From Runella sp. MFBS21 (GTDB lineage Bacteria > Bacteroidota > Bacteroidia > Cytophagales > Spirosomataceae), in contig NZ_JARNTW010000019.1 in NCBI RefSeq assembly GCF_029433105.1, positions 1-64,000 of the forward strand: DNA of 64,000 bases, read 5' to 3'. Under the pieces are notes generated by a model. The model saw nothing but the letters and a program-made list of their open reading frames with translations, was not told the origin of the DNA and searched no databases. Below, piece after piece: positions 126 to 14,886 of this stretch; the first letter of the stretch is position 1; every line of letters starts with the position of its first letter. The translations under genes and the position numbers were made by a program.

Positions 126-605
126 TCAAATAGACTCTAAAAAAGATTTATTAGGATAAAGGCTTTCTCCTGTTAAATATTCAAAATCACTCTTTAAATG
201 TTCATTATATCCCAAAAAAGCTTCTTCAATTTCTCTTATTTCATGTAAATTTGTAACAAGCTCTTTCACAATATATAATGTCAGGTAGTGCTCGCTCACC
301 AAGTAGGCTTTAAAGTCATTGAGCAACTCATATTCTTGTTTATAAATCAGTGGAGTCTTACAAGGGATATGTATACCAATATTGCGAAAATCAAATTTTT
401 TACTTTCTTTTTGGGCTTTTAAATATTCGATTTTTGCTGAATAATACAATAAAGTCATGGTTTTCCCTGTTCCTCTTTCTCCTGTCAAAAAAATATTCCG
501 AGGAGAAACGATGAAGCGAGAGAAGTTATGATCTTCTATATAATAATCTAATATATCAACACTAGATAGATTATTTGCTGCGTCATATGCGAAAGGGTTA
601 CGCAT
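126..605 (-). pseudogene. ORC-CDC6-like P-loop ATPase, truncated 5' part
   Basis: The 159-residue product has a canonical Walker A motif, GERGTGKT, at about residues 42-49, after a short region with NPFAYDAANNLS and a DYYIEDHNFSRF stretch. That arrangement is typical of the N-terminus of large ORC-CDC6/STAND-like ATPases linked to bacterial conflict systems, which are usually over 500 residues long. Walker B, sensor and effector regions are all missing. The frame ends SFLESI at a TGA right beside the IS terminus, so truncation by insertion is the simplest reading. Its ATG at 605 overlaps the end of the HD gene by 8 bases, showing that it was the last gene of a coupled operon. Probably not functional. 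Confidence 0.6.
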
Positions 606-1596
606 TTTCCAAAGATCGTTGTTCTGAATTTATTTTTGCAATTATTTGGTCAATATCATAATCCCTGAACAGTTCTTGTAATGGTTTATGCGAATCGCCT
701 GGGATTACTAAATCAGTTAAAGTACAATTATCAATTGTTAATTCTCCTTCTCCATGTTCAATATTTATTACCACTTTCGTTTCTTTAAAGACATCACATA
801 TAGTGCTATAATGTCTTGCAAATTTTCTTTCCTGATCAAGTTTATGAATACGCTCGTATGTAAACTCTAAAAGTTCTCTCAAGCTATTATTGTCTTTAAA
901 ATCAATATTATAAGTTAACTTTATGCTATTGCTTCCTCTATCAATATGCACATGCGTAATACTTGCATATTGATGATATATTTTACTTTCTTCATCATAC
1001 AATCCGTTATTCAATTTATAAAGGGATGTTCTATGTGGACCCTCTGACAACTCATCAGCAAATCTCAGTAAAACAGCCATTTCTCTCACTTTTACATCAT
1101 TACCATCTATCCCATCATTTACTGGCAATGGTTGCATAGTGTCTGCATCACGACCTTCTTTTCCACTGCTACTATGTGCAGAGGCTGCGCGCAGAACAAG
1201 TCTTCGTTCTTGTTTATATCTTGCTCTGTCTTCAGTTTGCATAGAATCGTAAATATGCTTAATTCTTGATCGAACATGATGTTCTTTACGACCTTTAATA
1301 ATTCCACTATCATGGAACAGCACAATTAAACCTAAAAAATATAAGTCCATTCCTGTCAAATAACCATATTTATCACCGATCACTCTATGTATACTATTCA
1401 TAACATCAGCTATATGACTGGGGTCATGCCTCGATAAATTAGGAGCAGCAGCAGCATTCTCAGGATAAATATCTTTAATAAGCTTGTTACGAACTTCCTT
1501 ATACCTTACGTAATATTCGTCTCCTTTTATTTCATCAAATTGAGTATAAAGCTTCTCTTTGATTTTTTTTTCAAAGTCATTTTCAATCCAACTCAT
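598..1596 (-). CDS. HD-domain metal-dependent phosphohydrolase-like protein
   Basis: 332 residues. A full HD-type metal site can be traced: H57/H61 in RHDPSHIADV, the H95-D96 pair in LFHDSG, H141 in AHSSSG, and D181 in RFADELSEGPHR. The spacing and the ADELSEGPHR block resemble the HD-CE group of HD proteins found in conflict systems, rather than dGTPases or PDEs. The C-terminal third (about 200-332) has no recognised motif. The start at 1596 overlaps the methyltransferase stop by 4 bases (ATGA), and its end overlaps the ATPase start, so the three genes are translationally coupled. The substrate is unknown; nucleotide hydrolysis would be a guess. Confidence 0.75.
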   Translation of the reverse strand: MSWIENDFEKKIKEKLYTQFDEIKGDEYYVRYKEVRNKLIKDIYPENAAAAPNLSRHDPSHIADVMNSIHRVIGDKYGYLTGMDLYFLGLIVLFHDSGIIKGRKEHHVRSRIKHIYDSMQTEDRARYKQERRLVLRAASAHSSSGKEGRDADTMQPLPVNDGIDGNDVKVREMAVLLRFADELSEGPHRTSLYKLNNGLYDEESKIYHQYASITHVHIDRGSNSIKLTYNIDFKDNNSLRELLEFTYERIHKLDQERKFARHYSTICDVFKETKVVINIEHGEGELTIDNCTLTDLVIPGDSHKPLQELFRDYDIDQIIAKINSEQRSLENA

Positions 1597-2669
1597 TTTA
1601 TATATTCTGTAATTTTTGAAAAAACTGCTTTTGCTAAAAGTGGTGGTACAGCATTGCCTACCTGCTGTTGTTGAAATCCGATACTGCCTTTAAACTCGAA
1701 CCAATCAGGGAAAGATTGTAACCGAGCGGCTTCCCTTACTGATAACCCTCTATCCTGTGTTGGATGAATTAACATATTTTTTCGATAATTACCAATAACA
1801 ATAGAGGGTGTATCTTCACGCAAACGATGATAAATACCTGTATGACAACGAGTAAAGTCTTTGTAGTTATTCATTAGTTCGGCAGGAATGTTTTGCCAAT
1901 TACCTCCCTGTGGGATATACTTATACCTTTTTACTACTAATTCTGAATTTCTGGTAACTTGATGATTAGCAGACTTTTCAAGATTACCTCTTAATTGATT
2001 AGCATAAGGCGAAGAGGGGTCTTTTCGATAGTTTTGCCAATTTTCACTTGCACCTACTTTCAAAATTGGTAAATCATCTAAGGCATCTTTAACTGTGTTA
2101 ATGGTTAAATGTGTCGGTGTTGGAAACTCAAATTCGATTCCATCAATGCTTCCTACTATAAAAAAGCGTGTCCGTTTTTGAGGTACTCCAAAATCAACTG
2201 CATTTAATTTGGCACATGATACTTTATATCCAAGACTTTCTAAGTCGGCGACTACTTTTTCTAAAAAAAGACCACTCTCCGTTTCGGAAAAGCCTTTAAC
2301 ATTTTCAAAGACCACCCATTTTGGGGCAGGCTTTAAAAGTCTAACAATTCTTATAAACTGCTCAAAGAGCCAGTTATTATCATTTTTTAAGTTTCGAGTC
2401 TTTTGATTAGAGGTAGAGAATCCTTGGCAAGGAGGGCCGCCAAATAATACAATGTCTGATTTTGAAGAGATTTTAAGAGGAACCGTATTCAAAGCACGTA
2501 TATCTTTATCGAATACGATTGTCTGGGATAAATTATGACGATAAGTAGTACAAGCGTGTATATCATTTTCAACTGCTAATTTCACGTCAACACCTGCTTC
2601 AAGCGCCCCTAACGACATACCTCCTGCCCCAGAAAACAAGTCAATACCTATAATTTTATTAGCCATCAA
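1593..2669 (-). CDS. DNA (cytosine-5-)-methyltransferase
   Basis: 358 residues with the standard order of C5-methyltransferase motifs: motif I LFSGAGGMSLG (11-21), motif IV GGPPCQGFS with catalytic Cys81, motif VI ENV (122-124), motif VIII QKRTRFFIVG (about 164-173), a target-recognition region at about 190-310, motif IX in SVREAARLQSFPDW and motif X QVGNAVPP near the end. It transfers a methyl group from SAM to cytosine within a recognition site that cannot be predicted here. No restriction endonuclease gene is adjacent; instead an HD protein and an ATPase follow in a coupled operon, so it may mark self DNA for a non-classical system. ATG 2669 is chosen; ATG 2666 is equally possible. Confidence 0.93.
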   Translation of the reverse strand: MMANKIIGIDLFSGAGGMSLGALEAGVDVKLAVENDIHACTTYRHNLSQTIVFDKDIRALNTVPLKISSKSDIVLFGGPPCQGFSTSNQKTRNLKNDNNWLFEQFIRIVRLLKPAPKWVVFENVKGFSETESGLFLEKVVADLESLGYKVSCAKLNAVDFGVPQKRTRFFIVGSIDGIEFEFPTPTHLTINTVKDALDDLPILKVGASENWQNYRKDPSSPYANQLRGNLEKSANHQVTRNSELVVKRYKYIPQGGNWQNIPAELMNNYKDFTRCHTGIYHRLREDTPSIVIGNYRKNMLIHPTQDRGLSVREAARLQSFPDWFEFKGSIGFQQQQVGNAVPPLLAKAVFSKITEYIK

Positions 2670-3399: not shown

Positions 3400-3969
3400 A
3401 TGGATTTTATAGAAAACGCCGAACCTTTCGTAAAGGGGCTTTGGTACATTACTTTGCCCGCTACGCTCATTTTCTTGATTCAAACCATCATGACATTTGT
3501 AGGTAGCGACGCTTCCGATGGCTTGGATGCGGACTTTGACGGCGACTTGTCGCATACAAGCGGACCTTTTCAGCTTTTTACCTTCCGCAATCTCATCCAT
3601 TTTCTATTGGGATTTGGGTGGACGGGGCTGGGCTTTTATGAACTTATTCCCAATAAACCTCTTTTGGTGGTGGTCTCTTGCGGAGTGGGCATAGGCTTAG
3701 TGATACTGTTCTTTTTTATCATCAAACAAATCCGACGTCTCAACCAAGACAATACGATGCGTCTTGATAATGCCATCGGCAAAACAGCACAAGTATATCT
3801 TACCATTCCTGCCCAACAAAAGAGTCATGGCAAAGTGCATATTAGCATCCAAAACACCCTTCGCGAACTGGATGCCGTTACATTGCAAGACTTTGCTATC
3901 CCTACGGGTGCGTCGGTAAAAATCATCGGAACTACTGCGGCTGGAACACTGCTGGTCGAAAAAATTTAA
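3400..3969 (+). CDS. NfeD-like membrane protein, flotillin partner
   Basis: 189 residues. Hydrophobic segments lie at about 14-34 and 85-110 (LLVVVSCGVGIGLVILFFFII), with a more polar stretch between them that includes an Asp-rich DGLDADFDGDL part. The C-terminal 75 residues look like the small beta-barrel (OB-fold) of NfeD/YqiJ/YuaF proteins: a KTAQVYLTIPAQ strand, then GASVKIIGTTAAGTLLVEKI. It is followed after 34 bases by a flotillin gene; this pairing (YuaF-FloT, YqiJ-YqiK) is well known and points to membrane-microdomain organisation. The exact biochemical role is unknown. Confidence 0.75.
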   Translation: MDFIENAEPFVKGLWYITLPATLIFLIQTIMTFVGSDASDGLDADFDGDLSHTSGPFQLFTFRNLIHFLLGFGWTGLGFYELIPNKPLLVVVSCGVGIGLVILFFFIIKQIRRLNQDNTMRLDNAIGKTAQVYLTIPAQQKSHGKVHISIQNTLRELDAVTLQDFAIPTGASVKIIGTTAAGTLLVEKI

Positions 3970-4003
3970 AATTATCTATAAACCCTAAAACTAAGTATTC
4001 CTT

Positions 4004-5527
4004 ATGAGTCCTTTGATTACAATTGCCGTGATTGCGGTGGTGATTTTTGCCACTATCGCTGCGCTTTTGGCACGCTATAAGCGTTGCCCTTCTGACAAAA
4101 TATTGGTCATCTATGGCCGCACTGGTACTGACAAAGACGGTTCGACTTCTTCGGCGCGCTGTATCCACGGGGGTGGAGCTTTTGTATGGCCTGTGATTCA
4201 AGATTATGCTTTTTTGGATTTAAAGCCTATTTCTATCGAAGCCAATTTGACCAATGCCCTCAGCCGCCAAAATATCCGTATCGACGTGCCTTGTCGGTTT
4301 ACGGTGGCGATTTCGACCGAGGCCGACAGCATGAACAATGCCGCCGAGCGCCTCTTAGGTCTCTCGATGCAAGACATCCAAGAACTCGCCAAAGATATTT
4401 TGTTTGGTCAGCTACGTTTGGTGATTGCGACCATGACTATCGAAGAAATCAACTCTGACCGTGATAAGTTTTTGACCAATATCACCCAAAACGTAGAAGC
4501 CGAATTGAAAAAAATAGGCTTAAAACTAATCAACGTCAACGTCACTGACCTTCGCGACGAATCGGGCTACATCGAAGCTTTGGGAAAAGAGGCAGCGGCC
4601 AAAGCCATCAACGAAGCCAAAATCAGCGTAGCAGAGCAAGAAAAAATTGGGGAAATCGGAAAAGCCTCCGCCGACCGTGACCGTGATACGCGCATTGCCG
4701 AAACCCAACGTGAACGCGATATTCAAATCGCCCAAACAAAAAAAGACCGCGAAATCGTAATCGCTGCTACCTTGCGAGACGAGGCTATCGGGAAAGCAGA
4801 GGCCGAAAAAGATACGCGTATCAAAATTTCGGAAGCCAACTCATTGGCCGTTCAGGGTGAAAACGAAGCCAAAATCACCATCGCAAACTCCGAAGCACTC
4901 CGCCGCGAGCGCGAAGCCGAAGCCAACAAACGTGCCAATGCCGCCGAAAAAGTACAGCAAGCGAGGGCACTTGAAGAATCATATTTGGCCGAACAAAAAG
5001 CCGAAGCCGCCCGTGCCGAAAGAGAACGCTCGTCGCAATTGGCCAATACCATTGTACCAGCCGAAGTAGCCAAGCAACGCGCCATCATCGAAGCACAAGC
5101 CGAAGCCGAACGAATCCGCGAAAGAGCCAAAGGGGAAGCCGATGCTATCTATGCCAAAATGGAAGCCGAAGCGAAAGGTTTATACGAAATCCTGACCAAA
5201 CAAGCCGAAGGTTACAAAGACGTAGTACAAGCGGCGGGTGGTGACCCTTCTAAAGCTTTCCAATTGTTGTTGATTGAGAAACTTCCTGAGCTTGTGAAGA
5301 TTCAGGTAGAAGCCGTGAAAAATATCAAGATTGACAAAGTGACCGTTTGGGACAATGCCGGTGGAGGCGCAGATGGCTCTACCACGGCCAATTTTATCTC
5401 AGGGATGATGAAGTCGGTTCCTCCTCTCAACGACCTTTTCAACATGGCGGGCCTTAACTTACCTGAGTACCTCAAAGGCAATGACCCGAACCAGACCCTT
5501 TCGCTGCCCCCTGAAAAAAAATCATAA
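4004..5527 (+). CDS. Flotillin family protein (SPFH domain)
   Basis: 507 residues. One N-terminal membrane segment (3-23), then an SPFH/band-7 domain (about 30-200) with PCRFTVAIST and a VNVTDLRDESGYIEALGKEAAAKA block. A long, strongly charged coiled-coil region follows (about 200-430), rich in EAEA, RERE and QAEAERIRERAKGEADAI repeats typical of flotillins. The C-terminal tail is Gly/Pro-rich with INKVTVWDN-like beta structure. Flotillins oligomerise on the inner membrane and scaffold lipid microdomains. It forms an operon with the upstream NfeD-like gene and ends at a strong bidirectional terminator. Confidence 0.92.
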   Translation: MSPLITIAVIAVVIFATIAALLARYKRCPSDKILVIYGRTGTDKDGSTSSARCIHGGGAFVWPVIQDYAFLDLKPISIEANLTNALSRQNIRIDVPCRFTVAISTEADSMNNAAERLLGLSMQDIQELAKDILFGQLRLVIATMTIEEINSDRDKFLTNITQNVEAELKKIGLKLINVNVTDLRDESGYIEALGKEAAAKAINEAKISVAEQEKIGEIGKASADRDRDTRIAETQRERDIQIAQTKKDREIVIAATLRDEAIGKAEAEKDTRIKISEANSLAVQGENEAKITIANSEALRREREAEANKRANAAEKVQQARALEESYLAEQKAEAARAERERSSQLANTIVPAEVAKQRAIIEAQAEAERIRERAKGEADAIYAKMEAEAKGLYEILTKQAEGYKDVVQAAGGDPSKAFQLLLIEKLPELVKIQVEAVKNIKIDKVTVWDNAGGGADGSTTANFISGMMKSVPPLNDLFNMAGLNLPEYLKGNDPNQTLSLPPEKKS

Positions 5528-7589: not shown

Positions 7590-8480
7590 CTATTGAGTAG
7601 CTACACTGTAAGAAAATGGCAAGCTATCCGAAAACTTCCCGAAGATAACGGGGGTTTGATAGTCTTTTTCCATTTTTTGCGTCATTTTTGCGCCCGTTAT
7701 GTTCATCACATTGGCTCTCACAAAACTATACAATTCTTTGATGGTCACAACCCCGTTTTTGTCGCTGTCGGCCTCACCTCGCGCACCCTTGTCCAAATAA
7801 TAAGTAAAATACCCATGACCAATCCGTTGGTTTTCGCGCGAGCTTTGATTGGCTTTAGAGGCCATAAAAGCTACTATGTTTTTGTCGGTTGGTGAGGTAT
7901 TGGCAGGACTACCATGCGTATCGCTGTGGACTTTCATACTCCCTGTATTACAAGCATCTGCTATAAAAAACCTGTCCTTAGCACGACATTCCCGAAACGC
8001 TCTTGCAATAGCATTGTATTCCAGAAGACTCGAAGCATCTGAATCCATATCGTGCGGACATAAAACTTGATAAGTACCATGACCTGTAAAATAAAAAATA
8101 ACACGGTCGTTGGGGGTAGACTTGCTAAACAAGCTTCGCATCTGAGCTATTATATTGGCTTTAGTAGCTTGGCTATCTAGCAGTTTGGCGATATTTTCGG
8201 GGGGGACGCTTCCTCCTTGTGGGCTCCTCAAAAAATCATAGAATAGATTGGCGTCGTCGTCGCAATATTCCAAATCATAAGTATTGGGATCGGTGGGTAA
8301 TACTACCGATGGTCTTGAGTTAAAATATTGGTAATCAGATACCCCTACAATTACTGCGTAGGTTTGACCCTCCCCTTTATAAGTTGTATCGCTAGCGATA
8401 GCCGATTTGAGCCCTTTATAGCCTAAGTAAATTCCGCTGGCTACTATTACAAAAATGAAAATGCTTTTCAAGGTGTTCAT
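7590..8480 (-). CDS. Caspase-family (peptidase C14) protease, membrane-anchored
   Basis: 296 residues. A single hydrophobic segment near the start (6-20) suggests an anchor or signal. The caspase fold follows, with TYAVIVGVSDY at 40-50, the catalytic His134 in FYFTGHGT and Cys177 in FIADACNTGS. An EF-hand-like loop, DSDKNGVVTIKE, lies at 238-249 and could bind calcium. Metacaspase-like enzymes of this family cleave after Lys/Arg. It is the last gene of a six-gene operon, 11 bases downstream of the Ser/Thr kinase gene, so phosphorylation-dependent control is plausible but unproven. Confidence 0.88.
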   Translation of the reverse strand: MNTLKSIFIFVIVASGIYLGYKGLKSAIASDTTYKGEGQTYAVIVGVSDYQYFNSRPSVVLPTDPNTYDLEYCDDDANLFYDFLRSPQGGSVPPENIAKLLDSQATKANIIAQMRSLFSKSTPNDRVIFYFTGHGTYQVLCPHDMDSDASSLLEYNAIARAFRECRAKDRFFIADACNTGSMKVHSDTHGSPANTSPTDKNIVAFMASKANQSSRENQRIGHGYFTYYLDKGARGEADSDKNGVVTIKELYSFVRANVMNITGAKMTQKMEKDYQTPVIFGKFSDSLPFSYSVATQ

Positions 8481-8491
8481 GGATTTTGGAT

Positions 8492-10384
8492 TTAACGTTT
8501 TCTCAATAAAGAATTAATAGTATTCCAGCCATCCAAGGCCGCAAACGGTTGTTTTTGAGCGGAGGTTTTGGGTTTATTATAAGAACTATAAGAAGGAGAA
8601 GAAGTAGGTCGGACTCGGGCTAAGGCAGTTCGGGCGTCTGAGATGCCTTGTTTGGCTGCTAATTCATAATAATAAGCCGCTTGGCTAGGGCTTGCCGTAA
8701 CGCCATATCCATGTTCATAGATATAGCCTAAATTATAGTGTCCCCATTTTTCATTTTTACTAGAAGCCGTTTCAAAGTACTTTTTAGCAAGTTTAAAATC
8801 TTTGTGATTACCTTCAAGGTATATCAGACCAAGGAAATTATTGGCAATAACGACCCCATTGTTGGCAGCTAACTCAAAATACTTCTTAGCTTTTTCAGAA
8901 TCTGGCATTTTGTTGCCAAGTCCTTTAAAAAAAATACACCCAATTCTATAATTAGCATCTGGATAGGAGTCATCTACCTTCTCATAAAAATCAATCGCTT
9001 TATCGATATTAGCGATAGCCCCGCCTCTTCCTTCTTCATAGTATAGCCCTAAGGCATAGTTGGTGGTATCGTCCATAAGCCATGTATTGGCGTACTTGTC
9101 CATCCGCAAAAACATTTCTTTATATACCCTGGCTGTGTCTTCGTATCGGATGGTTGAATAAAAAGTTGCTTTTACCCATTTCATGTCTTCTTTGCCAGTG
9201 GTGTACCAATTCCAATAATAGAACCCAATCAGAATGAAGCCTATCACTGCTGTTACAGCCCTATATCGTTTGAAATTATTTTTTTTAAAAGGGAGAGCAG
9301 GAGCCAACAGTTCCGCCCGGCACTTCTCTAGCTTTCTCTTGGCTTCGGTATGTTGGGCATCTATTTTCAGGACTTCTTCGTAGTATTTGACGGCTTCTTT
9401 CAAGGATTGCTCTTTCAAAAAACCAACCATACTCAAGGAGGCTTCAAAATGAGTATTCCCTTTTTCCAACATTTCTTTTATACTCAAATCGTGCTCTACA
9501 CGCTTTGTTTGCTCGTCCTCTACTTTCTCTATTTTTGTCTCTTCATCTAGCAACTTGAGCAGTTCTTCTGCCTTTTGAGGCCGTTTTGCGTTGTCAACGG
9601 TCAAACATTTTTTGATAAGCGTACGATAAGGTTCGGGTACAGTGTTGATTTTAGCGGGAATCTGCCCACTTACAATCAATTTACTGATTTCGATATTCCA
9701 GCTTTCTTGACTTATGGTACGAGAAGCATCAAAGGGCAATTCGCCGACTAACAAATGATAGGCACATACCCCCACTGCCCACAAATCTACGTTGGGACGA
9801 ATGTCGCGGGCTTGTATTTGCTCAGGTGCCGCATAGGCAATCGAAAGCCCAATGGCAGAGTTTTCGATGGAATGAGTATCGGTACCAGAAAGTTTACTCA
9901 ACCCAAAGTCGGTTAGTTTAGGAATCCATCCTTTAGCTTGGCGCTCCATCAGAATATTTTGGGGTTTTAGATCCCGATGGATAATATGGTGCCGATGAAG
10001 ATGCGCCACTCCTTCCAAAATTCCCTTAATAATCTGGTGTTTTTGGGGAAGCGTCAAATTATATTTTTTCAAAACATCGTTGAGATTGCCATCTTCATAA
10101 TATTTCAAGATAGCAAAATCATAACGAAGAGGCATGAACTGAAATCGATAACAGTTGCCATAACGAACAATGTTTTCGTGCGAATCAAGCTCATCTACAA
10201 GTTGTTTTTCGTGTTGTAAATTAAATTTCTCGTGTTTTACCTCAGCTACTTTAATAGCCACATGACGCTTCTGAACCGTATCATACGCTTTATAAACCGA
10301 GGCAAATCCACCTGTTCCCAATAAGGCACGTTTGTCTTGGGTGTCAAATTCGTAGCGTTTTAAAAATGTATCGTAAGTCATCAT
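8492..10384 (-). CDS. Ser/Thr protein kinase (Hanks type) with Sel1 repeats
   Basis: 630 residues. The kinase domain (about 12-280) has the glycine loop LLGTGGFASVYKA, ATP-binding Lys45 in VAIKV, the catalytic H136-R137-D138 in IIHRDLKPQN, D159-F160-G161, and APEQIQ. A charged coiled-coil linker with TPR-like helices (about 300-365) precedes one membrane segment at 375-394. The outer or periplasmic part (470-600) contains Sel1-like repeats such as ALGLYYEEGRGG, NFLGLIYLEGN and NLGYIYEHGYGV. It therefore looks like a receptor kinase with a protein-binding sensor. It lies between a PP2C phosphatase and a caspase gene in one operon. Confidence 0.93.
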   Translation of the reverse strand: MMTYDTFLKRYEFDTQDKRALLGTGGFASVYKAYDTVQKRHVAIKVAEVKHEKFNLQHEKQLVDELDSHENIVRYGNCYRFQFMPLRYDFAILKYYEDGNLNDVLKKYNLTLPQKHQIIKGILEGVAHLHRHHIIHRDLKPQNILMERQAKGWIPKLTDFGLSKLSGTDTHSIENSAIGLSIAYAAPEQIQARDIRPNVDLWAVGVCAYHLLVGELPFDASRTISQESWNIEISKLIVSGQIPAKINTVPEPYRTLIKKCLTVDNAKRPQKAEELLKLLDEETKIEKVEDEQTKRVEHDLSIKEMLEKGNTHFEASLSMVGFLKEQSLKEAVKYYEEVLKIDAQHTEAKRKLEKCRAELLAPALPFKKNNFKRYRAVTAVIGFILIGFYYWNWYTTGKEDMKWVKATFYSTIRYEDTARVYKEMFLRMDKYANTWLMDDTTNYALGLYYEEGRGGAIANIDKAIDFYEKVDDSYPDANYRIGCIFFKGLGNKMPDSEKAKKYFELAANNGVVIANNFLGLIYLEGNHKDFKLAKKYFETASSKNEKWGHYNLGYIYEHGYGVTASPSQAAYYYELAAKQGISDARTALARVRPTSSPSYSSYNKPKTSAQKQPFAALDGWNTINSLLRKR

Positions 10385-10432
10385 GATTTTGTAGGTTTTA
10401 TTTGACTCTTTATCGTTTTCACTCCCCTTAGG

Positions 10433-11425
10433 TCACTCTATTTTTTTGATTTTTTCCTTTATTTTAGGCGGCAGAGGGTTTTCAATCGCTGCAGGGGAAG
10501 ACGTAATCTTAACCTTGTGTGGAGAATTGTTTTTAGACCACAGTAACCAAGCCACAGTCCCCAAAAGCACCAAAGCTGTTATTCCCAAGGCCATTATCCA
10601 TTGTCTGACAAGAGGCTGAGGAGAAGGACGTGGTGGAGGTACTGAAGACAAAAGCTGCACCGCCAAATGCTCAACCGAACGGATAGGGATAAGATAGGCC
10701 GTAAAATTGTCGCGACTATGAACCTGGCATTTTGCTCTAATATGGGCGATTTTTTGAGAGTCGGATTGAGAACTGCCAACAATATCCAAGAGTTCTGCTT
10801 CTGAGAAGGATTCCAAAACTCCGTCTGTACACAACAAAAAATAATCTCCCGCATCAATCTCTTCGATTTGATGTATATCGGGCAACACACTGCTTTGGCT
10901 TCCTTGTAAGGCGCGTGTGATGATATTGCGTTTGGGGTGGTTCTGGGCTTCCCCAGAAGTGATGATACCCAATTTGACAAGCTCGTTGACATAACTATGA
11001 TCTTGGGTCTGCCACAATATCACCCCGTTTCGGATATGATACACTCGGCTATCTCCGATGTGAGCTATGGTAGCTCCAAAATCGGTCAAAAACAATAACG
11101 CCAAAGTAGTAGCCATACCTTGGGTGGAGGGTTCTATTTGTTGGTGAGTTTGAAGCTGGGCTTCTGCATGAGCTACTGCTTCGTATATGATTTGGGGTAA
11201 AGGCGTTAGGGCCTTGTTATTTAAGATATATTTACTTATTGCCTGAGTGACAATAGCACTCGCGATTTCTCCTTGGTCGATGCCGCCAACTCCATCACAC
11301 ACCAAAAAGAGGGTGTCCGAATTCGAAACTTTATCCAACAAAGGGTAAAGATTATCTTCATTGTTGGCGCGTTGGCCTTGTTCATGCAACCCAAATGGAG
11401 GAGCTAATAAAATCTTCATATCCAA
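10433..11425 (-). CDS. PP2C-family Ser/Thr phosphatase
   Basis: 330 residues. PP2C motifs are in order: GQRANNEDNLYPLL, LVCDGVGGID with the metal Asp, MATTLALLFL, AHIGDSRVYHI, and FLLCTDGVLES near residue 200. After the catalytic domain (to about 240) a Pro-rich linker and one membrane segment, WIMALGITALVLLGTVAWLLW, occupy about 277-297, with a short charged tail. It should reverse phosphorylation by the kinase encoded 48 bases downstream. The second in-frame Met, at 11419, is an alternative start. The FHA gene ends 5 bases upstream, so the genes are tightly packed. Confidence 0.92.
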   Translation of the reverse strand: MDMKILLAPPFGLHEQGQRANNEDNLYPLLDKVSNSDTLFLVCDGVGGIDQGEIASAIVTQAISKYILNNKALTPLPQIIYEAVAHAEAQLQTHQQIEPSTQGMATTLALLFLTDFGATIAHIGDSRVYHIRNGVILWQTQDHSYVNELVKLGIITSGEAQNHPKRNIITRALQGSQSSVLPDIHQIEEIDAGDYFLLCTDGVLESFSEAELLDIVGSSQSDSQKIAHIRAKCQVHSRDNFTAYLIPIRSVEHLAVQLLSSVPPPRPSPQPLVRQWIMALGITALVLLGTVAWLLWSKNNSPHKVKITSSPAAIENPLPPKIKEKIKKIE

Positions 11426-11430
11426 AAAAA

Positions 11431-12006
11431 TTAGAATAGAACGGTTTGTAGATAATCAGAATGAGCTACTTCCTCCGTTGCTTTACGGGCATTTTGAGCG
11501 GTACTTAAGGTTTTGAGGACTACTTTGGTTTTACCCAATTGAAGGGTAGCACCGTCAATAATCTCAAGGGTTGTACTTTTTTGGAGGGGGTGGGTATTTA
11601 TAAAAGTAGGATTGGTACAGCTGGGGTGTTCAGAAAGCCAATACTTATAGCTTCCCTCTTTGGTTTTTACAACTTCTATCGTCAGATGTTGACGGCTCAT
11701 ATAACGGTCTTGGGTCTGAATCATGACCTCGCATGGCTTAGAAACCGACGCTCGACCAATGGTCTGAAGCCCTAATGTTAAAGGCAATGTCTGGACTTCG
11801 GTATATTCATCATGTACTATAATCCACCCGACTTCGGTAGGGTGGTGAATCAAGGTCTGCTCCTCAAAATCGGGAGCAGAGCCTGACGGGAGAACGATTG
11901 GAATTAATTCCTGACAACGAACGCACTGAATGGAAGGGTTGTCGGATGATAACGCCTTTTCATTAAAACGCAGTCTCGCATTACACGAAGGGCAAGTGAC
12001 TATCAT
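11431..12006 (-). CDS. Zinc ribbon-FHA domain protein
   Basis: 191 residues. The N-terminus has two CxxC knuckles, VTCPSCNARL and IQCVRCQELI, with RFNEKAL between them, as in MJ0042-type zinc ribbons. The second half (about 75-170) is an FHA domain: TIGRAS, MSRQHLTIEV and the PTFINTHPL loop, which recognises phosphothreonine. It likely reads out phosphorylation by the operon's kinase. Gap to the PP2C gene is 5 bases. Its domain order is the reverse of the other FHA protein in this operon. Confidence 0.85.
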   Translation of the reverse strand: MIVTCPSCNARLRFNEKALSSDNPSIQCVRCQELIPIVLPSGSAPDFEEQTLIHHPTEVGWIIVHDEYTEVQTLPLTLGLQTIGRASVSKPCEVMIQTQDRYMSRQHLTIEVVKTKEGSYKYWLSEHPSCTNPTFINTHPLQKSTTLEIIDGATLQLGKTKVVLKTLSTAQNARKATEEVAHSDYLQTVLF

Positions 12007-12028
12007 GGATATAAATGCTTCGGAGTTG

Positions 12029-12802
12029 CTAGGCCAAATCTTCAGGATTCATAAAATCCTCAATACCGTCATAGTCGTTGTCATATTCATCTTCCGCTAT
12101 TTCTTCGGTATTGTAGACATACTCTTCTGGGGCAGAAGAAGGGACATAACTAGAATCAGGGCTTGACATATCGGTAGGAAGTTCATCGGTTGGGGATTGA
12201 GATATATTCATCACCACAAACTGTCCTTCCGCATCAGGAACAATACCGTTGGGATTGAGGGGTGAATATTCGGCAATCCACAACGCTTGGTGAAGCTGTT
12301 TTACATCAGAAGATAAAGCAGCATATTCGTCGGCATGATAAGTATGATATAGATTTCCTCGCCATTCAAACAAGGCCCCTGCCCCAAAATCTTGACGCGC
12401 TAATTGGAAGGCTTCTCCAAAACTCAAGTGGTCGGGTGCATTGGCCACCGTAATATGGTCTGGGATGAGCGTGACAAGGGTACTTACAGGAGGAGAAGAG
12501 GAGGGTGTGGTAGTGGTGGTACTGTCTGAAGGCGTAGATACTGACTCTTCTACTACAGCGGAGGTATCGGTAGATGTAAGAGGTGTATCATTTTGAGTTT
12601 CTTCCACAGTAGAAGATTCTTCGGCATAGGCGTCAATAGCGACGGCCCCCAAGCCAGTGGCGATAGCTCCGCCTATGACGGTGGCGGTAGGTTTGGTAGG
12701 TTTTGAAGAGGCCGTGTTGATGGCTACGCTGTCTAGGATGTGTGTTTGCTCTGACATGGTTGTAAGGTTTTTAAATTGTTTGGATAAATCACTTTCTGAC
12801 AC
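12029..12802 (-). CDS. Unknown Ser/Thr/Pro-rich acidic protein
   Basis: 257 residues. A hydrophobic Gly/Ala stretch, TVIGGAIATGLGAVAIDAYA, lies at about 40-60 and could be a membrane segment. Then comes a Thr/Ser/Pro-rich low-complexity region (about 62-110), and a folded-looking block at about 115-170 that contains SFGEAFQLARQDFGAGALFEW followed by GNLYHTYHADEYAAL. This block also occurs in other Bacteroidota proteins of unknown function. The tail is strongly acidic. Many Thr residues next to FHA and kinase genes make it a candidate kinase substrate; that is inference. Met at 12757 is an alternative start. Confidence 0.6.
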   Translation of the reverse strand: MSESDLSKQFKNLTTMSEQTHILDSVAINTASSKPTKPTATVIGGAIATGLGAVAIDAYAEESSTVEETQNDTPLTSTDTSAVVEESVSTPSDSTTTTTPSSSPPVSTLVTLIPDHITVANAPDHLSFGEAFQLARQDFGAGALFEWRGNLYHTYHADEYAALSSDVKQLHQALWIAEYSPLNPNGIVPDAEGQFVVMNISQSPTDELPTDMSSPDSSYVPSSAPEEYVYNTEEIAEDEYDNDYDGIEDFMNPEDLA

Positions 12803-12859
12803 TTCTACCTCTTTATCGTATGCTCCTACCGAAGGTCACCCAATTTTTTTTATTTTTTT

Positions 12860-13426
12860 TCAAAACCATTTAGCCTTACACCGAGGACAGTTTTTGAGAC
12901 GTTCGCAGTCATCCCACGACAACCAATCATAATCCCTCAATGGCTGTTGACATTTGGGGCAAACCCATTTACGAAATATATTCTTCAACTTTTCGCGATA
13001 GAGATTGACCTCAAATTGATTTTCAAAGGCTACTACAATCAGCCTCCCCACATAAGGTAAAGCTTGTACCAAATCAGCATTTTTCTGTTTTTGAGCAATC
13101 GTCTTTTTGGTTTGTTCAATTTCTTCCCACACTGGCTTGAGTGCCTCAAACTCAGTCCTAAAATCATCGGCATCTTTATGAAATCGAAAGAGTCTGGCAA
13201 CGTCGAAGTGGACTTTTCCGATGATGATTGCGGACTTGAGATTTATCATCGCTTTTCGGACGCGCAAATCATCTATAAAAGTCCCATTAGTCGAATGATT
13301 ATCTTCTAAGAGCCATTGTCCAGAGGGTTGTAATGTAGCTACAGCATGATACCCACTCACGCTAGGGTCATCAATTACAATATCATTGTCGGGCTTACGG
13401 CCAATCCGAAGCGTTTGAGTTTTCAT
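12860..13426 (-). CDS. FHA-zinc ribbon protein
   Basis: 188 residues. The FHA domain fills residues 1-75: LRIGRKPDNDIVIDD, SVSGYHAVATL and DNHSTNGTFIDDLRV hold the conserved Arg, Ser-x-x-His and Asn-Gly elements for phosphothreonine binding. A helical middle part (85-150) follows, then a C-terminal zinc ribbon with CPKCQQPL and NCPRCKAKWF. It is the first gene of the minus-strand signalling operon, 57 bases ahead of the unknown Ser/Thr-rich protein. Confidence 0.85.
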   Translation of the reverse strand: MKTQTLRIGRKPDNDIVIDDPSVSGYHAVATLQPSGQWLLEDNHSTNGTFIDDLRVRKAMINLKSAIIIGKVHFDVARLFRFHKDADDFRTEFEALKPVWEEIEQTKKTIAQKQKNADLVQALPYVGRLIVVAFENQFEVNLYREKLKNIFRKWVCPKCQQPLRDYDWLSWDDCERLKNCPRCKAKWF

Positions 13427-13528: not shown

Positions 13529-14176
13529 TCATAAAGGTAAGATACTGTCTGTTTTTTGGATAAAATAAGGGCGTTTGTCTATCCACAGCTTATAGCGACG
13601 AGTGTCGTTGTCATATTCCAAACTAATTTGGGGACGTGGTTTAGGAAGAGGGTTCCAGTACAATTCTAAGGTATTCGTAAATCGATAATGAAAGCGGTGC
13701 GTGAGGTCGTTGATGATAACAGTATTTATTTTTGTTTCTTGTTTTTTGATGCGTTTATCATTTTTGGTTTCCCATACCAGCATCGTAATAGCAAACACCT
13801 CAGTTTGGTTACCAGTTCTTATTTCGGTTTTGTCAGAAGGTAAGTTGTTTTCTTTTACTATCAGCCAAGTACTCACAATCGCCAATCCAATAGAAGCAGC
13901 TACTGCCCAATAAGTCCAATCTATTTTTTTGGTTTGCTTCAACTCCTCTCTTTGAGACTGGTTTATTGATTGATGAAAGTCTTCCATAAGGCGTCGTAAT
14001 TCAGCCTTTTCACCTTGCTTATTCAAGTAAGCTCTTATCGCTTTTTGGGCTTCTACTTCGCGGCGCAACTCTTGCTTTTCATTGATAAGTTTTTCAAAAG
14101 TTGCCTTTTCAGCAGGCATCATTTCCTCATCTAAATACCGATCAATCTGCTCTGTTCTATTTTCATCATTTATCAT
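13529..14176 (-). CDS. Anti-sigma factor-like membrane protein
   Basis: 215 residues. The cytoplasmic N-terminus (1-90) begins TEQIDRYLDEEMMPAEKATFE, the short helical motif common to zinc-less anti-sigma factors, followed by a charged helix. One membrane segment at about 93-112 (YWAVAASIGLAIVSTWLIV) leads to a periplasmic C-terminal part that ends with a beta-rich HRFHYRFTNTLELYWNPL region. It lies 6 bases downstream of an ECF sigma gene, the standard arrangement for a sigma/anti-sigma switch. It has no FecR signature. Confidence 0.7.
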   Translation of the reverse strand: MINDENRTEQIDRYLDEEMMPAEKATFEKLINEKQELRREVEAQKAIRAYLNKQGEKAELRRLMEDFHQSINQSQREELKQTKKIDWTYWAVAASIGLAIVSTWLIVKENNLPSDKTEIRTGNQTEVFAITMLVWETKNDKRIKKQETKINTVIINDLTHRFHYRFTNTLELYWNPLPKPRPQISLEYDNDTRRYKLWIDKRPYFIQKTDSILPL

Positions 14177-14182
14177 GGCATT

Positions 14183-14740
14183 TTAGCGATTAAATGTTCT
14201 CAAGATTTCTTTAGCCAACTCGCGAGCTTTGTCCATACATTTGTTTTTCTGGCTTTTGGCCGAATTATCATCTTTAAATCCCAACCGCCACGCAATCTGA
14301 CTCATCGGTAATTTTTCGTAATAAAAAGCGTGTAATAATTCTTGACACTTCTGGCCAACTTGACTCATTACTACTTCCAAGGCTCGTTCGTAAGGTTCTT
14401 CTTCTAATATCACTACCGCTTCTTCCAACTCCCATGTCAGGTCAGCTACCTTGTTTTGTTGGCGTAGTTTATCTATCCATTTATGATGACATACTGCATA
14501 CAAATAAGTAGAAAGTTTGCTCGTTAGGACATCCAGTTTACCAGCCCTTACTTGGGTGATTACTTCTATCATTCCTTCCTGATAGATATCTTTGGCATCT
14601 TCGTTAGTACCATTGTTTTTCAATACTAAATGGGCTATTTTTCCAAAATTTTCACGATAAAACACCCCCAAAGCTTTTTCATCTCCTGCTTTTAGAGCTT
14701 GAATTAGGTTTTTGTCGGAAAATTTTGATCCTGTATTCAT
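14183..14740 (-). CDS. ECF-type RNA polymerase sigma factor
   Basis: About 185 residues from the ATG at 14740; an upstream in-frame ATG at 14776 is possible but gives an A+T-rich extension. Region 2 contains LIQALKAGDEKALGVFY, AKDIYQEGMIEVI and LSTYLYAVCHHKWIDKLRQQ. Region 4 contains ELLHAFYYEKLPMSQIAWRLGF with the helix-turn-helix, then NSAKSQKNKCMDKARELA. It directs RNA polymerase to its own regulon and is probably held by the downstream anti-sigma factor. Its targets cannot be seen here; the divergent penicillin-acylase gene is a possible one. Confidence 0.9.
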   Translation of the reverse strand: MNTGSKFSDKNLIQALKAGDEKALGVFYRENFGKIAHLVLKNNGTNEDAKDIYQEGMIEVITQVRAGKLDVLTSKLSTYLYAVCHHKWIDKLRQQNKVADLTWELEEAVVILEEEPYERALEVVMSQVGQKCQELLHAFYYEKLPMSQIAWRLGFKDDNSAKSQKNKCMDKARELAKEILRTFNR

Positions 14741-14886
14741 TTTTGAATCGAAGAAATAATAAAATGTCACTTCCAATTTAAATAATTTTTTGGGTTCAGA
14801 ATAAAACCCCTTTTAGTTTTATTCTAAATTGCACGCTTTAAAGCCTATTTTTTCGTAATAAAATACTAAAATCCTTTCCTAACTTT

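Follow-up and report, generated by a model that had tools for sequence, protein, structure and literature searches.

What does a caspase-fold protease do in an operon with a protein kinase, a phosphatase and two phospho-readers? This question is raised by the 64,000-nucleotide stretch of Runella sp. MFBS21 DNA analysed here (the window; positions 1 to 64,000 of contig NZ_JARNTW010000019.1), since such a protease is tied to these partners by operon, by gene fusion and by co-inheritance. We know of no native trigger or substrate for most bacterial caspase homologues. Our best reading of the kind of system is a threonine-phosphorylation switch of the type VI secretion (T6SS) type whose wiring now leads to an envelope caspase and to an ECF sigma factor; that the operon is a transmembrane Ser/Thr-phosphorylation switch of the T6SS-gating kind, with an envelope-anchored caspase-like protease and the sigma factor as its new partners, we rate at an even chance.

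The first-pass annotation had described six tightly spaced genes (7590 to 13426) as a complete write-read-erase circuit with a protease output. All six open reading frames lie on the minus strand where it had placed them and were correctly named, with intergenic gaps of 11-102 bp when ATG starts are taken for two of them, and the catalytic residues of the encoded proteins are intact. The operon thus includes these six genes, but it is not complete with them, because a sigma factor gene and an anti-sigma-like gene just upstream had been left out. Judged by synteny, the unit comprises eight genes on the minus strand, from 14776 to 7590, in the order sigma, anti-sigma, FHA1, a protein of 242 residues that matches no family, FHA2, PP2C, kinase and caspase, the sigma and caspase genes being its ends (all coordinates below are on the minus strand). 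Within the window's clade the eight genes are collinear in 7/7 other loci, of which six belong to another genus (33-69% identity) and one to the same genus (93-97%); three flanking genes were found only in the same-genus locus and not in the other six.

In a wider set of 82 further loci, 73 have FHA1, the 242-residue protein, FHA2 and PP2C in this order on a single strand. Poor conservation of gene order, named in the annotation as refuting, is therefore not what was found; the writer-reader-eraser set is conserved, and the caspase stands beside it. A caspase gene lies near 58 of the 82 modules and the other 24 have none near by, which indicates that the caspase is not obligatory. These counts come from a custom ORF picker and nine profiles for which 10-20 sequences were taken from the loci being counted. 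The caspase was the query that found L031-L048, and the 242-residue protein found L074-L139 after the first set had been set aside, so the second set (64 loci, caspase near 40) under-counts caspases. The fair set for the caspase share is the loci found by the 242-residue protein in the family, of which 80 were fetched and 57 have a caspase near by; the window and four loci (G002:C741, G028:C32, G637:C438 and G628:C1 near 8.68 Mb) lie outside this set, and the profile of the 242-residue protein was itself built from caspase-linked loci and public proteins. The tables use 82 of 84 labelled loci, L078 and L079 having been dropped as repeats of parts of the L048 contig. With the window added there were 83 rows, and the tree holds the 78 in which two or more of three genes were present.

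The writer is a Hanks Ser/Thr kinase (8492..10384; PF00069, 169.3 bits) that carries Sel1 repeats in three stretches (PF08238, 90.7 bits), both scores being over the curated cut-offs. Its predicted layout is a cytoplasmic kinase domain, one membrane segment near residue 376 and C-terminal Sel1 repeats, a topology drawn from hydropathy, as are all membrane calls in this work. The eraser is a PP2C phosphatase (10433..11419; PF13672, PP2C_2, 57.9 bits, over its cut-off) with a putative C-terminal membrane segment at residues 277-295 (hydropathy 2.34); the ATG at 11419 was taken as its start in place of the TTG at 11425 given in the ORF list. Among the other PP2Cs listed, 9/15 have no membrane segment at the threshold. 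In loci L036 and L041 the PP2C and the caspase form a single open reading frame with a hydrophobic segment between them, which is probably one fusion event in two sister genomes.

The two readers differ in layout. FHA1 (12860..13426) has an N-terminal FHA domain over the curated cut-off (PF00498, 61.8 bits) and a C-terminal, zinc-ribbon-like end with four cysteines that are retained in 80-81 of 82 proteins. FHA2 (11431..12006) has an N-terminal zinc ribbon (PF13717, 30.7 bits, cut-off 30.3) followed by an FHA domain (PF00498, 36.0 bits), both over their cut-offs. Near its C-terminus lies Thr188 (LQ-T-VLF; 11443..11445), the second of two candidate phospho-threonines in the operon; position 188 is Thr in 73/74 FHA2 proteins, and a Thr falls within the last eight residues in 76/78 FHA2 proteins vs 235/640 other proteins. 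The window's FHA domains hold both R85 of FHA2, which we take to be the ligand-binding arginine, and N47 of FHA1. Across the family, position 85 is Arg in 40/74 and Thr in 26/74 proteins, and position 47 of FHA1 is Asn in 56/82; because both positions vary, phospho-threonine binding need not extend to all FHA domains of the family.

The 242-residue protein is encoded at 12029..12757. The ATG at 12757, as in a 97% identical public protein, is a more plausible start than the GTG at 12802. From this start the protein is predicted to have a short N-tail, a membrane segment, a Thr-rich linker, a folded ectodomain and an acidic end. It had no match in Pfam (E 0.05), NCBIfam (E 0.05) or PADLOC (E 0.01), and homologues are present in the module family. 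Its structure model is mostly disordered and is confident only at residues 101-160 (12278..12457; pLDDT block means 83-97), the putative ectodomain, in which F113, A116, G125, F130, T139 and E144 are invariant in 40 rows. A fold search with this model found nothing at E of 0.001 or below, and a profile search of solved structures gave nothing better than E 0.049. The annotation had proposed the Thr-rich protein as the kinase substrate. However, the Thr-rich half follows the predicted membrane segment and is probably outside the cytoplasm, so we dropped the linker as phospho-acceptor; the threonines that the kinase and the FHA proteins could reach sit in the N-tail. Likelier acceptors, to judge from sequence, are an N-tail threonine of this protein and the C-terminal Thr188 of FHA2. 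The N-tail candidate, and candidate FHA ligand, is Thr5 (MSEQT-HIL; 12743..12745), which is nearly invariant (90% or more) in alignments A1 (20 rows) and A3 (40 rows); in a second tail alignment, the window's Thr5 falls outside the main Thr column. A T-x-hydrophobic motif occurs in 46/80 N-tails vs a shuffle mean of 7.6 and a maximum of 15 in 500 shuffles; the pattern was picked after the tails had been seen, and some tails were trimmed too short, which lowered the observed count.

The caspase-fold protease (C14/C13; 7590..8480), whose gene lies 11 bp from the kinase gene, scores 59.2 bits against PF00656 (cut-off 21.4). The annotation's second refuting condition, a separate promoter for the caspase, is judged here by that short 11-bp spacing. 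Its structure model (pLDDT 85.2, pTM 0.81) matches legumain, metacaspase and caspase folds, including caspase-8, with E down to 6.6e-12. The catalytic residues His134 (8079..8081) and Cys177 (7950..7952) are present in 59/59 module caspases, and by fold and His-Cys dyad the protein falls in the caspase clan (C14, metacaspase-like) as a predicted protease. The 17 best non-self matches to it among 99 genomes, all of at least 143 bits, sit in modules. As for the EF-hand-like loop noted in the annotation (D238 to E249; 7734..7769), Pfam EF-hand_1 gives 14 bits, below its cut-off of 25.4, while the acidic end residues are conserved (D238 in 58/59 and E249 in 59/59 module caspases). The N-terminus of the window protein carries a putative membrane anchor or signal segment, and a hydrophobic segment ahead of the caspase domain is found in 57/59 proteins at a threshold of 1.3 and in 49/59 at 1.6, counted up to the domain border, which suggests an envelope location; a stricter 19-residue membrane test was passed by 10/17 other caspases. 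The caspase is therefore probably outside the cytoplasm, and because of these segments and of the one within the PP2C-caspase fusion, a cytoplasmic caspase was dropped. The claimed protease output is a putative one, as signals between PP2C and caspase could run in either direction.

Taken together, these features could work as follows. The kinase would sense an envelope signal through extracytoplasmic Sel1 repeats and, inside the cell, would phosphorylate the N-tail threonine of the single-pass 242-residue protein and the C-terminal threonine of FHA2. FHA1 and FHA2 would dock on these phospho-threonines to form a membrane complex, from which PP2C would remove the phosphates. Through the membrane, the state of the complex might reach the caspase, which would sit at the outer face of the inner membrane and cut an envelope substrate, perhaps with Ca2+, and the sigma and anti-sigma pair would form a transcriptional branch. 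Gene order, domains, catalytic residues, conserved threonines, hydrophobic segments, the PP2C-caspase fusion and the T6SS-linked sister modules are read from sequence, while topology, each phosphorylation and docking event, signal direction, substrate and the part played by the sigma pair are proposals. A precedent for the docking step is found in T6SS, where TssL, a protein of the inner membrane, is phosphorylated by PpkA on Thr14 and bound by Fha (PMC3953482). For this family of Bacteroidota as a whole, the idea that a T6SS-type switch has become a general membrane device, in which phospho-Thr docking inside gates the caspase-fold protease outside, which in turn feeds back on the ECF sigma factor, is put forward tentatively, well short of an even chance. 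Bacteria would then have a kinase-to-caspase pathway that crosses a membrane and serves the homeostasis of the envelope or the remodelling of the surface, not cell death. For a study of how the caspase is controlled, the residues named here are Thr5, Thr188, H134 and C177.

The sigma and anti-sigma-like genes raise an alternative, in which the caspase acts upstream like a site-1 protease: an envelope signal would lead it to cut the periplasmic part of a membrane anti-sigma, thereby freeing the ECF sigma factor, and the kinase, PP2C and FHA proteins would set the threshold. These are the first genes of the operon. The sigma factor (14183..14776, probable ATG start near 14740) exceeds the NCBIfam sigma70-ECF cut-off (TIGR02937; 54.1 bits, cut-off 42.9), and the anti-sigma-like gene (13529..14176) lies 6 bp from it. 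The latter reaches 22.3 bits against the anti-sigma model NF052375, below the cut-off of 100, and its position and membrane segment (residues 89-107, hydropathy 1.85, with about 108 C-terminal residues that are probably periplasmic) fit an anti-sigma factor. Such a segment is found in 23/41 others at a strict threshold, with 13 more at 1.09-1.47. A sigma gene lies near 42/58 caspase modules vs 1/24 caspase-less modules, which speaks for the re-wired switch as well; one sigma family accompanies the module, in three different positions, and with a single sigma query from each of two other module clades, the window's sigma was the best own-genome match. Myxobacterial metacaspase operons resemble the operon described here in that caspase-family and sigma-70 genes share a predicted operon, and they differ in that the available part of the report mentions no set of FHA, PP2C or kinase genes for them (PMC3501461). 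Against this alternative, the anti-sigma-like proteins of the four loci L110-L113 have no membrane segment despite the presence of a caspase, 16/58 caspase modules have no sigma gene within 10 kb (some of these stretches end early), and a phylogeny-aware test of caspase with sigma did not reach significance (median p 0.5, with few informative pairs), so that Fisher values overstate independence. We regard this alternative as rather unlikely. The L110-L113 proteins and the test also count against the re-wired switch. Alignments of the DNA ahead of the sigma and FHA1 genes from the window's clade gave no clear motif by eye (in the sigma alignment, three stretches come from another sigma label and not from upstream of the window-type gene). 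Promoter-like sites numbered 24 vs 17.1 (sd 3.7) in shuffles and terminator-like sites 6 vs 7.3 (sd 2.9), and in the Rfam search only tRNA exceeded the gathering score.

The likeness to the T6SS threonine-phosphorylation pathway (PpkA, PppA, Fha/TagH) lies in the combination of a membrane Hanks kinase and a PP2C with FHA readers, in an inner-membrane protein whose predicted cytoplasmic N-tail holds a candidate phospho-Thr, and in the sister modules near T6SS genes. In total, 21/82 modules have the T6SS gene tssC no more than 50 kb away, one of them being a sister module without a caspase in the window's own genome. Broken contigs make this an undercount; in L119, a near relative of the T6SS-linked L074, module and tssC are on separate contigs. 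The annotation's statement that the operon is unlike T6SS kinase loci thus does not extend to the family. As for the window operon itself, the one tssC match of this genome (TssC PF17541; VipB PF05943 had no match) lies on another contig, C6. Moreover, the window's FHA proteins, at 26.0 and 30.5 bits, are far below the TagH cut-off (TIGR03354, 120.25 bits), and for these two reasons a strict T6SS kinase locus was dropped; the operon also differs in adding the ectodomain protein, the caspase and the sigma pair. It could be proposed that the module still regulates T6SS in trans, from this second locus, with the caspase serving the quality control or maturation of some T6SS or surface component. 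tssC is present in 54/66 genomes with the 242-residue protein vs 27/156 without it, the window's own genome has tssC, and six of the 21 T6SS-linked modules have a caspase. However, this genome already has a T6SS-linked sister module, the co-occurrence may reflect shared ancestry, and sigma genes occur in 0/21 T6SS-linked modules vs 43/61 others, that is, sigma-bearing modules are T6SS-linked in 0/43. Regulation in trans is therefore improbable. As the sister modules adjoin a well-studied secretion machine, the re-wired switch that we prefer bears on whether one phospho-switch has two outputs per cell.

An intracellular programmed-death or abortive-infection switch, as the annotation had suggested, is very unlikely. 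In its favour are the caspase fold and PADLOC domain matches of the kinase (mad6, 192 bits; PD-T4-6, 150 bits), the caspase ('caspase', 62.3 bits) and PP2C (PDC-M21C, 54.8 bits), hints that any further proteins from such large domain families would give as well. The curated NCBIfam scores are far below cut-off (MAD6 148.4 of 460 bits; caspase_w_EACC1 74.5 of 140), for which reason an EACC1 caspase system was dropped, and the hydrophobic segments ahead of the caspase domains and in the fusion also argue against a death switch. The Pfam matches of the eight proteins, one of them matchless, include no NTPase or nucleotide-sensor domain and no gasdermin name. Caspase-containing conflict systems have caspase domains in multi-gene signalling loci, as here, with FHA and kinase domains sometimes as effectors (PMC7159879, PMC8195603); unlike them, the eight proteins of this operon gave no Pfam match to a MoxR, vWA, STAND or GTPase domain, and its caspase stands alone with an N-terminal hydrophobic segment.

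A chance neighbourhood deserves practically no credence: signalling genes are common in such genomes, but the collinearity within the clade, the core order across the 82 loci and the PP2C-caspase fusion contradict it. The TerY-P triad combines a PP2C, a kinase and a vWA protein (TerY); the first two are shared with the operon, and the triad was dropped because no vWA domain was matched by Pfam among the eight proteins. Elsewhere in the family, a vWA protein adjoins the module in L037.

The six minus-strand genes running from 13426 to 7590 were confirmed to encode FHA1, an unannotated protein, FHA2, PP2C, a kinase and a caspase, the kinds that the first-pass annotation had named. FHA2 combines a zinc ribbon with an FHA domain, PP2C has a membrane segment at its C-terminal side, the Hanks kinase has a membrane segment with Sel1 repeats behind it, and the caspase-fold protease has a membrane segment at its N-terminal side. 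Directly upstream of FHA1, the minus strand also encodes an ECF sigma factor and an anti-sigma-like protein with one membrane pass; these two genes are separated by 6 bp, and the pair lies 102 bp from FHA1. In a tblastn search, the order sigma, anti-sigma, FHA1, unannotated protein, FHA2, PP2C, kinase, caspase was kept in 7/7 other loci of the same clade, with 33-69% identity to the window proteins in six loci from another genus and 93-97% in one locus (L031) from the same genus. Because all eight genes are collinear in the seven loci and the three genes flanking them were found only in L031 in the same search, the unit in the window is, judging from gene order, one of eight genes (14776-7590). 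Judging from the names on related public proteins (Runella, Persicitalea, Salmonirosea and Rhabdobacter), the host is probably a Runella or close to it.

The unannotated protein (242 aa, 12029-12757, minus strand) was found with the A1 profile in 66 of the 222 genomes of the host's family and in 5 of 395 genomes sampled across the phylum; the wider A3 profile found it in 33 of 390 genomes sampled across the order, 28 of them in the host's family. In 82 loci other than the window's, open frames of the surrounding DNA were labelled with nine home-made profiles, and genes located within 10 kb of the unannotated gene encoded FHA1 (81 loci), FHA2 (81), PP2C (76), the kinase (75), the caspase (58) and the sigma factor (43). 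Conservation of gene order in other Bacteroidota, the check proposed by the first-pass annotation, extends from the eight genes within the clade to FHA1-unannotated-FHA2-PP2C on a single strand in 73 of the 82 loci. A caspase was near in 57 of the 80 fetched loci found via the unannotated protein in the family. The commonest larger order, judged by eye, is FHA1-unannotated-FHA2-PP2C-caspase-kinase with a TPR protein and a convergent sigma/anti-sigma pair, and, in loci scanned for domains, a PKD-, lectin- or propeller-domain protein. The window order, with the kinase before the caspase and the sigma factor upstream, is a feature of its own clade. In two modules (L037:14405-16003 and L038:1-1454), a PKD and vWA protein adjoins FHA1, as identified by Pfam in the former and by similarity of the pieces in the latter. 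In a module from another family of the order (L048:12440-18379), the kinase has WD40 repeats and is followed by two more WD40-repeat proteins, and therefore the sensor parts of the kinase vary among modules.

The caspase is part of the module. Among 99 genomes, the 17 top-scoring non-self caspase matches (at least 143 bits each) were all within modules, and among the next 11 caspase neighbourhoods (L048-L058, at most 134 bits) only L048 contained a module. Furthermore, PP2C and the caspase form one continuous frame in L036 (521 aa) and L041 (534 aa); the stretch joining their domains contains a hydrophobic segment, whose 15-residue means reach 1.41 and 1.71, respectively. In 57 of 59 caspases, including the window and both fusions, a hydrophobic segment lies ahead of the caspase domain, although only 10 of 17 pass a stricter 19-residue test. 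The fusions would therefore place the caspase outside the cytoplasm, provided that the contacts of PP2C with the FHA proteins and the kinase are cytoplasmic. H134 and C177 were kept in 59/59, as was E249 of an EF-hand-like loop, with D238 in 58/59; the strict loop pattern was found in 44 of 59 module caspases versus 6 of 20 other caspases. Since the loop of the window caspase scores below the Pfam cut-off, binding of Ca2+ is only a hypothesis.

The modules also differ in their association with type VI secretion (T6SS). The assertion that the set is unlike T6SS kinase loci did not hold for the family, as 21 of the 82 modules are located within 50 kb of tssC (positions from 222 genomes), one of them in the window's own genome. 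This sister module, on contig C6, encodes FHA1, two proteins of the unannotated family, FHA2, PP2C and a divergent kinase, and has no caspase; it lies approximately 24 kb from tssC. Large proteins come next, one of them carrying a T9SS sorting tail (PF18962), and after them tssC and T6SS-like genes (L074:5053-11288 and L153:12282-19887), with ClpV-, Hcp- and PAAR-like genes beside tssC recognized by eye only. In five of five modules (L114-L118), tssC is within 6 kb, and neighbours in L114 encode TssC (487 bits), TssB (27.6 bits, cut-off 24), Hcp/TssD, VgrG-like and Clp-ATPase proteins. In raw counts that ignore kinship, tssC was present in 54 of 66 genomes with the unannotated protein versus 27 of 156 without it.

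Among the 21 T6SS-linked modules, none had the sigma factor and 6 had a caspase; among the 61 modules without this link, 43 had the sigma factor and 52 a caspase. The sigma factor was near 42 of 58 caspase modules versus 1 of 24 caspase-less modules; a tree-based pair test of this association had too few informative independent changes to reach significance (median p 0.5). In a tree of FHA1, FHA2 and PP2C (78 rows, built by a quick method, with long branches flagged), sigma/caspase modules fall mainly in three clades, and the pair has three placements: convergent downstream, same-strand upstream, as in the window, and same-strand downstream. A single sigma family seems to track the module through rearrangement, since sigma queries from the other two of these clades, one each, both had the window's sigma as best match in its genome (65.8 versus 42.5 bits and 70.6 versus 31.5 bits for the runner-up).

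The best-supported model is a transmembrane switch like the T6SS threonine-phosphorylation pathway, whose steps beyond the anatomy we infer. The kinase would write on the N-tail of the single-pass unannotated protein and on FHA2, the FHA domains would read these phospho-marks, PP2C would erase them, and the state of the complex would be relayed to the envelope caspase, with the sigma/anti-sigma pair as an added branch. The caspase may be either the output or, by cutting the anti-sigma factor, an input. The unannotated protein is predicted to consist of a short N-tail, a membrane segment (hydropathy >1.0 in 80/83), a Thr-rich linker, a folded ectodomain of approximately 60 residues, which is the confident part of its structure model, and an acidic end; many relatives have Asp-rich repeats. 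This plan would therefore put the Thr-rich part behind the membrane segment. On the N-terminal side of this segment, T5 hardly varies in 20-row and 40-row alignments, with contexts such as THIL, TQII, TQIF, TDVF and TDAY, and the tested Thr pattern was found in 46 of 80 tails versus a shuffle mean of 7.6. We are unsure of the positional homology of T5 across the whole family, because a different tail alignment places the window's T5 outside the main Thr column. The C-terminal Thr of FHA2 (T188 in the window, LQTVLF) was kept in 73/74, and its site presumably resembles the T-S-V-F site of GarA/OdhI. At what we take to be the FHA ligand-binding positions, all present in the window, FHA1 kept R10 in 74, S24 in 76, H27 in 81 and N47 in 56 of 82, and FHA2 kept R85 in 40 and S104 in 68 of 74, and R105, H107 and N132 in 74/74. 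In many relatives, Thr occupies the R85 position, so that phospho-Thr binding by FHA2 is less likely to be a family-wide rule.

The nearest experimental parallel is Agrobacterium, in which TssL, an inner-membrane protein, is phosphorylated at Thr14 by PpkA and bound by Fha (PMC3953482). Among the matches listed in open-licence literature (titles and beginnings of abstracts), no description of an FHA-PP2C-kinase-caspase operon was found, which is weak evidence. Nearest in print are myxobacterial metacaspase operons, which contain sigma-70 genes (PMC3501461), and caspase-bearing conflict systems (PMC7159879, PMC8195603). The window unit is best read as a known type of phospho-switch with an unusual partner. 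The observation in the first-pass annotation was right, with stronger conservation than could be foreseen, and its interpretation was half right: the conserved write-read-erase circuit with an adjoining caspase is supported, programmed death is not.

A large caspase-family array is located on contig C21 of the same genome (L150:4361 to L152:8035), a contig with 13 of the 17 PF00656 matches in this genome, and the C-terminal sequence of many array ORFs presumably resembles formylglycine-generating-enzyme-like domains. The array contains the ECF sigma factor that was runner-up to the module sigma (L151:7312-7992) and, by eye, an anti-sigma-like gene (L151:8068-8946), with a kinase-like gene nearby (L150:10693-12726, by eye). 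At the window edge (126-2669, minus strand), a cytosine DNA methyltransferase (PADLOC MTase_II, 371.8 bits) is adjoined by two proteins that weakly match defence ATPases, making this region a possible defence locus. Adjacent ORFs at 3400-5527 (plus strand) resemble, by eye, an NfeD-type membrane protein and a flotillin-like protein.
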